IMG/VR virus record: IMGVR_UViG_3300037339_000563
Location: 1-55,380 of that record
From: a virus
DNA length: 55,380 bases
Reading direction: 5' to 3' (one strand)
The notes beneath the pieces are model-generated. The model did not search any database. It was given only the letters and a program-made list of their open reading frames with translations, and had not been told where the DNA came from. A program made the translations under genes and the position numbers. Within the stretch, counting starts at the first letter, position 1, and each line of letters starts with the position of its first letter. Positions 35,936 to 45,476 of this stretch are shown here, piece by piece.

Positions 35936-36352
35936 ATGTTCAAGGCGATCATCGTCGAATGCCGGTCACTGTGCGAGGCCGCGACGAAGGAACAAAAGAG
36001 AGCTGGACTGGAAGCGTCTTGGAAGCGCGAGAAGGCCAGCAGCACCCCAGAGCGCCTTGCCAAGGTCGGGGACAATCCAGACATAACGACGAAGCGACGG
36101 CTGACTCGACCCATGCCCGATATCACAGATATGAGGGCAAGCCTCAAGAAGAGGATCGACAAAGATCCCCAGGGTACCCATGACAGAGAGGGCTACAAGT
36201 ACCCAGCAGAGCAGAACAGGATCCACAAGTTGCCGTACGCGCAGAAGCGGTTGAGTGACTTTGAGCCACCGAGCAAGCTCCCTGCGGCAACTGCGCTTTC
36301 CAAGAAGAAGCCAGGCCTGATGTCTCGGCTGGCCAGCGTCTTCAAGAAGTAA
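35936..36352 (+). CDS. small basic protein with shared N-terminal targeting-like motif
   Basis: 138 residues from the ATG at 35936; a frame opening six codons upstream is less likely. It begins MFKAIIVECRS, one of four proteins in this region that share an amphipathic N-terminus. The rest is basic and likely disordered (many Lys, Pro), ending in LASVFKK. A CATAAC -10-like hexamer ends 6 nt before the ATG and there is no ribosome site. Candidate internal virion or host-takeover protein (inference). Confidence 0.65.
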   Translation: MFKAIIVECRSLCEAATKEQKRAGLEASWKREKASSTPERLAKVGDNPDITTKRRLTRPMPDITDMRASLKKRIDKDPQGTHDREGYKYPAEQNRIHKLPYAQKRLSDFEPPSKLPAATALSKKKPGLMSRLASVFKK

Positions 36353-36380
36353 CCAAAGCTTAGGGTCTGCGCTTCATAAA

Positions 36381-36431
36381 ACCTCGGTGGCAGCACCGAA
36401 GCCTTCAACGGTTTCCCGCAAGGGTTGAGGC
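36381..36431 (+). ncRNA. structured segment upstream of tRNA-Ser(CGA)
   Basis: TCGGTG-GCAG-CACCGA hairpin followed by an imperfect GCCTTCAAC/GTTGAGGC stem. Not a cloverleaf. Function unknown. Confidence 0.3.
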
Positions 36432-36436
36432 GGCAT

Positions 36437-36520
36437 GGAAGACTAACTGCGGATGGCCGCAGCGCCCGTTCGAAGCGGGATGGGACCGAAAGGTCTGGGG
36501 ATCGAGACCTCAGTCTTCCG
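36437..36520 (+). tRNA. tRNA-Ser(CGA)
   Basis: Acceptor GGAAGAC/GTCTTCC, anticodon loop TTCGAAG, long variable arm. T-loop is ATCGAGA, with A in place of T54, as in tRNA-Ser(TGA) at 48268. Confidence 0.8.
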
Positions 36521-36591
36521 CGATTTGGTCTTGCTGCACATTGTGTCGACGTGCGATGGCAGATTGGAAAAAAGAGCGCAGAAAACAACTT

Positions 36592-36663
36592 GGTTCATGA
36601 TGCGATAGGTATCGCAGCCTGTCTGTCTAACAGGTGAAAGGGGATCGTTACCCCTATGAACCG
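36592..36663 (+). tRNA. tRNA-Asp(GTC)
   Basis: Acceptor GGTTCAT/ATGAACC, anticodon loop CTGTCTA, T-stem AGGGG/CCCCT with unusual T-loop ATCGTTA. Confidence 0.8.
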
Positions 36664-36667
36664 CTCT

Positions 36668-36738
36668 GGGCGTCTAGTACAACGGGAATACATTCGGCTG
36701 GCAGCCGAATGATCAGGGTTCAACTCCCTGGATGTCCA
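36668..36738 (+). tRNA. tRNA-Ala(GGC)
   Basis: Anticodon loop CTGGCAG in a TTCGG/CCGAA stem, T-arm CAGGG/CCCTG. Short D-arm. First of three clustered Ala tRNAs. Confidence 0.8.
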
Positions 36739-36743
36739 CAAAC

Positions 36744-36812
36744 GGGGAAGCCATCGGGATGGAACACTGCCTTGCACGCAGAGCCTCGTGGGTTCAACTC
36801 CCATCTTCTCCA
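36744..36812 (+). tRNA. tRNA-Ala(TGC)
   Basis: Acceptor GGGGAAG/CTTCTCC, anticodon loop CTTGCAC in CTGC/GCAG, T-arm GTGGG/CCCAT; reduced D-arm. Confidence 0.75.
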
Positions 36813-36817
36813 CAAAC

Positions 36818-36888
36818 GGGTCCATCGTATAACGGGCGTATATTCGGATCGCACCCGAAAGATCGGAGTTCAAATCTCCGTGGATCCA
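36818..36888 (+). tRNA. tRNA-Ala(CGC)
   Basis: Acceptor GGGTCCA/TGGATCC, anticodon loop ATCGCAC in TTCGG/CCGAA, T-arm CGGAG/CTCCG. Confidence 0.8.
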
Positions 36889-36927
36889 CAAATGGAAAGC
36901 AAAACGGCTAGGGCGCGAGTCCCGTTA

Positions 36928-37006
36928 AGACCGCCTTGGGCTGGCCTGAAGGCAGGAGCACTCCCTTGCAAGGAGAGCCATTGGGGAGCGTTACCCCTCC
37001 GGTCCA
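36928..37006 (+). tRNA. degenerate tRNA-like gene, TGC loop
   Basis: Anticodon arm CTCC-CTTGCAA-GGAG and T-arm TGGGG/CCCCT are clear, but only five acceptor pairs (GACCG/CGGTC) form and the D-arm is unclear. Possibly a decayed second Ala(TGC). Confidence 0.4.
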
Positions 37007-37011
37007 CGAAC

Positions 37012-43632: not shown

Positions 43633-44466
43633 GTGAGCACCAAGGATATTTCTCGCTCTGCCCTTGAAGGGGGCAGAAACACCGGCAACAAGTGGGAGCG
43701 CAACGAATCCCACCGGCACGAGCGCAGCCGCGCGAGGGTCTGGCTGGACACCGTTCGCTTCGATGACGAGGCCGCCGATGATTCGGCTCCGGCCCCGCGC
43801 AACCCTGTCAGCAAGGGTTTCACCGACAAGCTCAACCCCTGCTACCGCTGGCTCGCCAGCCACTGCGGTCAGCCCTGGGACAACGTCTTCAGCAAGCTCG
43901 CCAGCACGTTCGACACGCGCAAGCTGAGCGCCTGGCACATCGTCAAACAGCATATGTTGACCGACGTCCAGGGGGCTGGCACCGCGCGAGATGGCTTCGC
44001 TGGCATCTTCGGCGGCTACCACCGCTTCTACATCGACGGCGATGGCCTCCTCCGGGACAACGGCAAGCGCGCCTGGCGGAACCGCAAGGTCGAGCACAAG
44101 GGCCCCTCGAAGGAGTCTGTCTTCGCCTACGCCAAGGGCCGCAAGGTGTTTGACCACCACAGTGGCTTCAGGCAGTGGGCGCTTCCCGGTCCTGGCGAGT
44201 GGCAGTCCTGCAAGGCCATCAAGGGTCGCTGCTCGATTCCCGGTCACCTGCACCGCAAGGTGGAGACGACGTCCGCCGCTCTGGTCGAGAAGTACAAGCT
44301 GTCCGGGTTCCGCACCCTGGGGGAGGGCGACTGGTGGCGCGCTTTCGCTACCGAGCACTTCGTCTCCCAGTCCTGGCGGGCCCACAAGAAGTTCACCAAA
44401 GTGGAACTCAAGTGGTGGGAGTCGATTAGCTATGATATCCGTGGCTTGCTTTACGTTCCGCGCTGA
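43633..44466 (+). CDS. conserved-looking hypothetical protein
   Basis: 277 residues from a GTG with AGGAG 7 nt upstream. A basic N-terminus is followed by NPCYRWLASHCGQPWDNVFSK (split at GQPW), WHIVKQHM and a C-terminal WRAHKKFTKVELKWWESIS. It resembles uncharacterised plasmid/phage proteins I have seen with an RxxGRPWxKV-type core, function unknown. Codon use is more GC-rich than in neighbouring small genes, so it may be highly expressed. A CAGGC/GCCTG hairpin follows. Confidence 0.75.
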   Translation: MSTKDISRSALEGGRNTGNKWERNESHRHERSRARVWLDTVRFDDEAADDSAPAPRNPVSKGFTDKLNPCYRWLASHCGQPWDNVFSKLASTFDTRKLSAWHIVKQHMLTDVQGAGTARDGFAGIFGGYHRFYIDGDGLLRDNGKRAWRNRKVEHKGPSKESVFAYAKGRKVFDHHSGFRQWALPGPGEWQSCKAIKGRCSIPGHLHRKVETTSAALVEKYKLSGFRTLGEGDWWRAFATEHFVSQSWRAHKKFTKVELKWWESISYDIRGLLYVPR

Positions 44467-44499
44467 AAATTAGACAATCAGGCGGAAGCCTGAGAATCT

Positions 44500-44570
44500 G
44501 CTCCCATAGCACAATGGTAGTGCGACGGTTTTACATGCCGTTGACGATGGTTCGATTCCTTCTGGGAGCA
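44500..44570 (+). tRNA. tRNA-Val(TAC)
   Basis: Acceptor GCTCCCA/TGGGAGC, anticodon arm ACGGT-TTTACAT-GCCGT, T-loop TTCGATT. Confidence 0.85.
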
Positions 44571-44575
44571 CCGAG

Positions 44576-44842
44576 ATGACGATTCAAGAGAAGGTTAAGA
44601 CAATGCACTTCCGTATGGCGGAGATGCGAGACAGCGCTAAGAGCGAGCGCAAGGCACGTTGCTTCGCACTCCTGCATGATGCTGTCGTTCACACAGGGCA
44701 TCGCATTGATAACCTGAACAACGATTCGCTCATCGGATTCATCGAATTGGCCGCCCGTACGGTCTCAGAGCCGGACATGAACGACCGGATGCTTCGTGAT
44801 AAGCTCGTCGCCATGGGCTTCAACACGGCCCCAGTCAATTGA
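44576..44842 (+). CDS. small hypothetical protein
   Basis: 88 residues, helical, basic N-terminal half and acidic C-terminal half. Starts 5 nt after tRNA-Val. Not recognised. Confidence 0.65.
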   Translation: MTIQEKVKTMHFRMAEMRDSAKSERKARCFALLHDAVVHTGHRIDNLNNDSLIGFIELAARTVSEPDMNDRMLRDKLVAMGFNTAPVN

Positions 44843-44847
44843 GGCGA

Positions 44848-45042
44848 ATGGCCAAGAGTAAGATCATGACTGAAGTTCCTCGCAGTGTGCTTGAGGCAAC
44901 CGCTCAAGTTCTTGGGCCGACGTCAGCTGCCGCTCGCGCCTTGGCTGATGCCGATGCCCACGATGGCGAGACGAAGTTCTTTCGTCATGGCGCACAGATT
45001 ATGGTCAAGATGATCGCCTTACCCGTGGGCCGCTGGAACTAG
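44848..45042 (+). CDS. small hypothetical protein
   Basis: 64 residues from the ATG at 44848 with GAGG just upstream; a TTG at 44839 is an alternative. Helical, not recognised. Confidence 0.55.
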   Translation: MAKSKIMTEVPRSVLEATAQVLGPTSAAARALADADAHDGETKFFRHGAQIMVKMIALPVGRWN

Positions 45043-45047
45043 CAGAC

Positions 45048-45122
45048 GCCCGCGTAGCTCAATTTGGTAGAAGCATCCCGCTTAAGACGGGTTCAGTGCC
45101 GGTTCGAGTCCGGTCGTGGGTA
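45048..45122 (+). tRNA. tRNA-Leu(TAA) with short variable arm
   Basis: Acceptor GCCCGCG/CGTGGGT, anticodon arm TCCCG-CTTAAGA-CGGGT, T-arm GCCGG/CCGGT. The variable region is about 5 nt, whereas bacterial Leu tRNAs normally have a long arm. Confidence 0.75.
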
Positions 45123-45130
45123 CGATTTTT

Positions 45131-45213
45131 GTCGACGTGGCGTAATTTGGTAGCCGCGCTGCGCTTAGGACGCAGTCCCGCAAGGGGTAGGAGTTCAAAT
45201 CTCCTCGTCGACA
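45131..45213 (+). tRNA. tRNA-Leu(TAG)
   Basis: Acceptor GTCGACG/CGTCGAC, anticodon arm CTGCG-CTTAGGA-CGCAG, long variable arm TCCCGCAAGGGG. Confidence 0.9.
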
Positions 45214-45234
45214 CTAGACTGATTTTGTTGGGGT

Positions 45235-45263
45235 TTGACTTCGCAGATCTGATGGCATAGTTT
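45235..45263 (+). promoter_or_regulatory. promoter of 45270-45476
   Basis: TTGACT (45235-45240), 17-bp spacer, TAGTTT (45258-45263), then 6 nt to the ATG: a leaderless arrangement. Confidence 0.7.
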
Positions 45264-45269
45264 CAGTTC

Positions 45270-45476
45270 ATGTTTCGTGAACTTATCGAAGCCATCCGAC
45301 TCGAAGGCGCTGCACGTGGAGCCATTGATAAGTGGAGCAAGCCGGGCGAAGGCGTGAAGCTCGCTAAGAAAAGCGTGACCCGATACCTGCGCCAGAAGAC
45401 GAAATTAGAACTCAAGAAGAAGGCTCCCGACGAGGTCAACATTCCTCGTCGCGGAACCAGCGGGTACGAGTCTTAA
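45270..45476 (+). CDS. small basic protein with shared N-terminal motif
   Basis: 68 residues beginning MFRELIEAIRLEGAARG, the shared pattern. The remainder is strongly basic (many Lys/Arg), suggesting nucleic-acid contact. It ends exactly where tRNA-Leu(GAG) begins. Candidate internal virion protein (inference). Confidence 0.7.
   Translation: MFRELIEAIRLEGAARGAIDKWSKPGEGVKLAKKSVTRYLRQKTKLELKKKAPDEVNIPRRGTSGYES

Follow-up and report, generated by a model that had tools for sequence, protein, structure and literature searches.

A shared N-terminal sequence on otherwise unrelated small proteins of a T4-headed phage lineage: a probable capsid-targeting sequence

A short N-terminal sequence was found to be common to otherwise unrelated small proteins, as in the capsid-targeting sequences (CTS) of T4-type phages, in the window (the whole 55,380-nucleotide stretch of viral DNA that was analysed) and in its relatives. 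We consider it probable that this shared N-terminus is a lineage-specific CTS of a T4-headed, non-T4 phage, through which cargo proteins would be loaded, trimmed and injected. The evidence consists of the motif itself, its enrichment, its modularity, its match to a protease cut site, and the T4-type head and protease encoded by the closest relative. According to the proposed mechanism, a tag of 10-15 residues would form an amphipathic helix that binds the assembling prohead core, bringing small, mostly basic cargo proteins into the prohead; a gp21-type S77 protease would then cut after [LI]-x-E, at residue 7-8 and, for some proteins, additionally or alternatively near residue 15, and the trimmed mature protein would be packed with the DNA and later injected. 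The variable bodies, which lie among tRNA genes like accessory genes, would most likely be early-acting anti-defence or host-takeover factors, as are T4 IPI, IPII and IPIII. If the tag is indeed a CTS, it marks about ten unrelated small-protein families as capsid cargo, adds another natural short capsid-loading signal to that of T4, and provides a simple rule by which injected proteins for host takeover or anti-defence could be recognised in metagenomic sequence.

Four tagged genes in a tRNA array

The four window ORFs, all located in an array of 38 tRNA genes, begin with the common sequence M-x(0-1)-[FL]-[KR]-x-[LI]-I-x-x-x-R, and their N-termini were found at the positions given in the original prediction (35936, 42698 and 45270 on the plus strand, 41772 on the minus strand). 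The first gene (35936..36352, plus strand) encodes a basic protein of 138 aa (pI 10.1) for which no homologues were found; its tag, MFKAIIVECR (35936..35965), has a predicted cut after E8 (IVE/C, the slash marking the cut) and a possible second site after E14, and a weak -10-like hexamer, CATAAC (35924..35929), lies 6 nt before the ATG. The second (41236..41772, minus strand) encodes a His-rich helical protein of 178 aa (pI 9.1) with relatives in the related genomes G001, G005 and G012/G013. Its tag, MLRSLINECR (41743..41772), has a predicted cut after E8 (INE/C) and a possible second site after E15, and the hexamer TAGTAT (41782..41787), 9 nt before the ATG, belongs to a promoter block conserved in G001, G005 and G013. 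The third (42698..43126, plus strand) encodes a protein of 142 aa (pI 10.2) with the tag MHFRSLIESVR (42698..42730), a predicted cut after E8 (LIE/S) and the hexamer TAAAGT (42687..42692) 5 nt before the ATG. The fourth (45270..45476, plus strand) encodes a basic protein of 68 aa (pI 10.1) with relatives in G001, G005, G006 and G013; its tag is MFRELIEAIR (45270..45299), with a predicted cut after E7 (LIE/A), and a promoter-like TTGACT-N17-TAGTTT (45235..45263), also present upstream of the G005 homologue, ends 6 nt before the ATG.

Beyond the tag the four proteins differ, as had been proposed: when the first 12 residues were removed, no mutual similarity was detected among the bodies. The description of the 42698 protein as ParB-like held only as a weak match of its C-terminal part (PHROG 1033, E = 0.007, residues 87-132); pattern searches of viral contigs and tblastn searches of phages yielded no homologues, and its structure model was unusable (pLDDT 48.5). 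The 45270 and 41236 proteins had no significant tblastn match in cultured phages. The model of the latter (mean pLDDT 68) consisted of a tag helix at residues 2-14, a disordered linker at 16-35 and a helical body, and the fold search with this model returned nothing below E = 0.5 and no known fold.

Enrichment of the motif and exchange of the bodies

A scan of the whole window with a loose form of the motif gave exactly the four matches described above, against 0.05 in dinucleotide shuffles. The relatives, reached via their terminase (that of G001 is 91% identical to the window's), yielded one match in G004 and three each in G001, G005 and G006, where shuffles expect 0.08-0.24; this total includes one match in G006, at 119749 (pI 5.8), that is probably spurious. 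A profile built from the four window peptides alone identified 16 ATG starts scoring at least 13 among 12,185 starts in the relatives, whereas the same profile with permuted columns (40 permutations) averaged 0.7 matches and never exceeded 3. The tag was also present in G012/G013, of the same phage type, which were fetched later and stood outside the training. A motif no more frequent than chance had been named at the outset as evidence against the proposal; the comparison was run, and enrichment was seen in both the window and its relatives. The tagged set that was kept comprised 21 genes from six genomes, leaving out as spurious the G006 match at 119749 and another at 63149 (TTG start). When all viral contigs were searched with a degenerate DNA pattern covering promoter and tag, seven contigs were recovered, three of them known members and four with short unrelated ORFs.

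The resemblance was originally found by eye, with a freely chosen pattern, and could in principle be a chance likeness picked among many ORF starts. This is scarcely credible, since the profile, once fixed on the window peptides, also matched independent contigs far more often than either permuted or shuffled controls, and the tagged frames carry coding signal: 0.21-0.31 bits/codon in all four window frames, compared with -0.10 +/- 0.14 in random frames of the tRNA island. Third codon positions were the most divergent between pairs of relatives.

The tag was found on bodies that have been exchanged. In G005 the tagged body at 96264-96581 is PHROG 7595 (E = 3.6e-38), and the PHROG 7595 proteins of cyanophages and roseophages start without the tag. 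In cyanophage KBS-S-2A the PHROG 7595 gene lies between the genes for a minor head protein and the coat protein, and the G005 body itself has a weak match to PHROG 220, minor head protein and DNA pilot (E = 0.0018). G004 and G006 share about 50 identical bases over promoter and tag, and beyond these their proteins (61 and 218 aa) are divergent; the locus lies 20 bases from tRNA-Lys in both. Similar DNA covers promoter and tag at the 41236 locus of G000, G001, G005 and G013; what comes next in G005, however, is the PHROG 7595 body, and the 41236-type gene stands behind it under a tag of its own. Promoter and tag kept in DNA while the body is swapped, at two loci, is the trace that a transferable loading tag would be expected to leave.

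The same observations bear on the idea that the tagged proteins are diverged paralogues of one small family, of which the N-terminus is merely the best conserved part and has no separate function. Some bodies are related to each other (the 45270 group and the 41236 group), as this idea would have it; however, most share nothing past residue 12, the PHROG 7595 body occurs untagged in unrelated phages, and the promoter and tag are conserved where the body is exchanged, so that common descent of the whole proteins appears very improbable. A broader proposal, to which we give roughly even chances, is that each T4-headed phage group outside the classical T4 family has its own capsid-loading code, and that promoter and tag together form an exchangeable effector cassette here; injected proteins could then be read directly from metagenomic contigs.

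Cut sites, head and protease

In the T4 internal-protein tag, residues 4 and 7 target the protein to the prohead core, and gp21 removes the tag by cutting after L/I-x-E, a step controlled by residues 8 and 10 (PMC9026906). Positions F2/L2, I5/L5, I6 and E8 of the 35936 and 41236 proteins have the spacing of T4 Y4/F7/I8/E10, shifted two residues towards the start, and in MHFRSLIE/S (42698) and MFRELIE/A (45270) the E of LIE comes one residue earlier. An [LI]-x-E ending at residue 7-9 was present in 19 of the 21 tagged proteins and missing in the other two, where 3.9% would be expected at residues 6-9 generally; this statistic is partly circular, as E occurs in the training peptides, yet all four window peptides have the complete [LI]-x-E. 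Several tagged proteins have a second [LI]-x-E at residues 14-15, and one relative of the 41236 protein without the early site retains the later one.

The window is a 55 kb fragment that lacks head genes, and these were inferred from the relatives. In G001 the genes for portal, protease and capsid come soon after the terminase region, just beyond the edge of the window. The G001 protease belongs to Peptidase_S77 (Pfam E = 5.5e-17; T4 gp21 structure 5jbl E = 1e-10) and continues into a long C-terminal part that resembles a scaffold; its DHP and SSRG blocks are conserved in four relatives. The G001 capsid protein falls in the T4 gp23 family (Gp23 E = 4e-71), and a gp21-family protease together with a gp23-type capsid is encoded in G001, G004, G005, G006, G012 and G013. 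These two proteins and the contractile tail sheath present in the lineage indicate a T4-headed myophage lineage, for which no close cultured relative was found.

Further observations were made around these genes. A second, short S77-protease-like gene occurs in G004 (L025:7987-8403), G006 (G006:C1:145824-146165) and G013 (G013:C1:72154-72405); those of G004 and G006 sit in the tRNA island near tagged genes, and the G004 copy keeps the serine region (LSSKG) and has no DHP histidine. The match to the G005 portal gene (G005:C1:142551-147686) is broken into four pieces lying apart, which suggests introns or inteins. Beside the capsid gene, ORFs with a leaderless-type promoter (G004:C1:55858-56694 and G005:C1:153207-154067) encode proteins (WWLG.YGDGN.Y) that resemble homing endonucleases.

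The shared N-terminus might instead dock the proteins at another target, such as the membrane, host RNA polymerase or a replication factor of the phage, without their ever being packaged. An amphipathic N-terminal helix could serve such docking, and the promoters of the tagged genes, which look sigma70-like, could be early; nevertheless, a docking peptide would leave unexplained the [LI]-x-E at a fixed place, the spacing match to the T4 CTS determinants and the coexistence with a gp21-type protease, and we regard it as unlikely, preferring a capsid-targeting role.

Known loading signals, promoters and cargo

The analogy drawn with T4 internal proteins was supported, as far as sequence tests can tell, by head type, protease, residue spacing, cut site and modularity. 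Like the CTS of T4 IPI, IPII and IPIII (and Alt), the lineage tag is a 10-20 residue N-terminal sequence on otherwise unrelated small basic proteins, with an [LI]-x-E site for a gp21-family protease and a gp23-type shell (here predicted from sequence), in accessory genes, one of them beside a tRNA cluster in T4. T4 IPI also has a later cut site, like the second sites at residues 14-15 of the lineage tags. In the lineage consensus, M-F-[RKQG]-x-L-[IV]-x-x-x-R, the hydrophobic residues begin at position 2, whereas in T4 (MKTYQEFIAEA) they begin at position 4; the T4 starts read from the genome were MKTYQEFIAEA for IPII and IPIII and MKTFKEFTSTTTPVSTITEA for IPI. The lineage profile run over 1,429 T4 starts ranked IPII 3rd, IPIII 38th and IPI 302nd, and because it recovers IPII while IPIII and IPI rank low, the lineage motif does not appear to be the T4 consensus itself. 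Other differences from T4 are the long scaffold-like C-terminal fusion of the protease, the purine-rich ribosome-site-like sequences of T4 genes that most lineage tagged genes lack, and the absence of sequence homology between the T4 cargo and the candidate cargo of the lineage, whose status is read from the genes.

In phage P1 an N-terminal peptide of DarB loads this anti-restriction protein, and a reporter, into the capsid (PMC9024508); P1 has a different head, and DarB is a single 250 kDa cargo protein in contrast to the set of small basic proteins of the lineage. In phiKZ and SPN3US, a gp21-type protease that has diverged takes the propeptides off ejection proteins, cutting behind a short motif with a terminal E (PMC5694885). 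These propeptides are mostly longer than 100 residues, whereas the lineage tag is short and shared; a diverged paralogue of the protease occurs both in SPN3US-type phages and in the lineage relatives. The lineage's own motif is not enriched in LR756511 (L112-L141), an uncultured phage of 595 kb whose head is distantly T4-type. A T4-like tag, M..[FY][KRQ][QED][FWY][ILFV], stands at 18 of its starts (permuted patterns gave 0-2), and few of these have [LI]-x-E. A TA[AT]A[AT]A box stands just before the ATG in 11 of these 18 starts, compared with 30 of 290 other long ORFs.

The window genes had also been described as having leaderless-type promoters, which was borne out for three of them and weakly for 35936 (CATAAC, -10 score 0.8); a Shine-Dalgarno sequence was absent before all four. 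The -10 score at 19 tagged genes was higher than at other genes (p = 4e-7), and nearly every tagged gene is preceded at 4-9 nt by a -10-like hexamer; the best average was at a 6-nt spacer, so transcripts probably start at or beside the AUG. Two tagged genes lying directly behind another gene have a Shine-Dalgarno sequence in place of this layout. The leaderless promoter was rejected as a defining trait of the tagged set, as the TTGACA-N17-TAnnnT-N6-ATG layout also occurs at untagged genes of these phages. The T4 late promoter TATAAATA occurred in 0-1 copies per genome in the lineage, with no enrichment.

Most of the tagged proteins (20/21) have a pI of 8.7-10.8, and a tRNA gene lies within 450 bases of 14 of the 19 tagged genes checked; T4 ipI likewise adjoins T4 tRNA genes. 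The GmrSD restriction enzymes inhibited by T4 IP1, IP2 and IP3 differ from one protein to the next, and the signal sequence has served to recognise many ip genes (PMC12373910; PMC3012670). Family and fold searches of the tagged bodies matched no anti-restriction family or known anti-defence fold, and an anti-defence role of the putative cargo is suggested by the T4 precedent.

Within the tRNA array of the window, terminator-like elements (GAGCCG ... GGTTAYCA ... GTTCGC, in many cases with a T run behind them) recur at 39560-40290, 42340-42620 and 43297-43418, in the spaces separating tRNA genes and, it seems, within some of the genes; at 42343-42469, Rfam identified a 127-nt tRNA with a terminator-like insert. 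The tRNA island of G001 contains a 393-aa ORF that starts like elongation factor Tu (G001:C1:44535-45716, L012). Near the terminase of the window, a 530-aa protein (5426-7018, minus strand) has weak similarity to the PI3/PI4-kinase and DUF4135 families.
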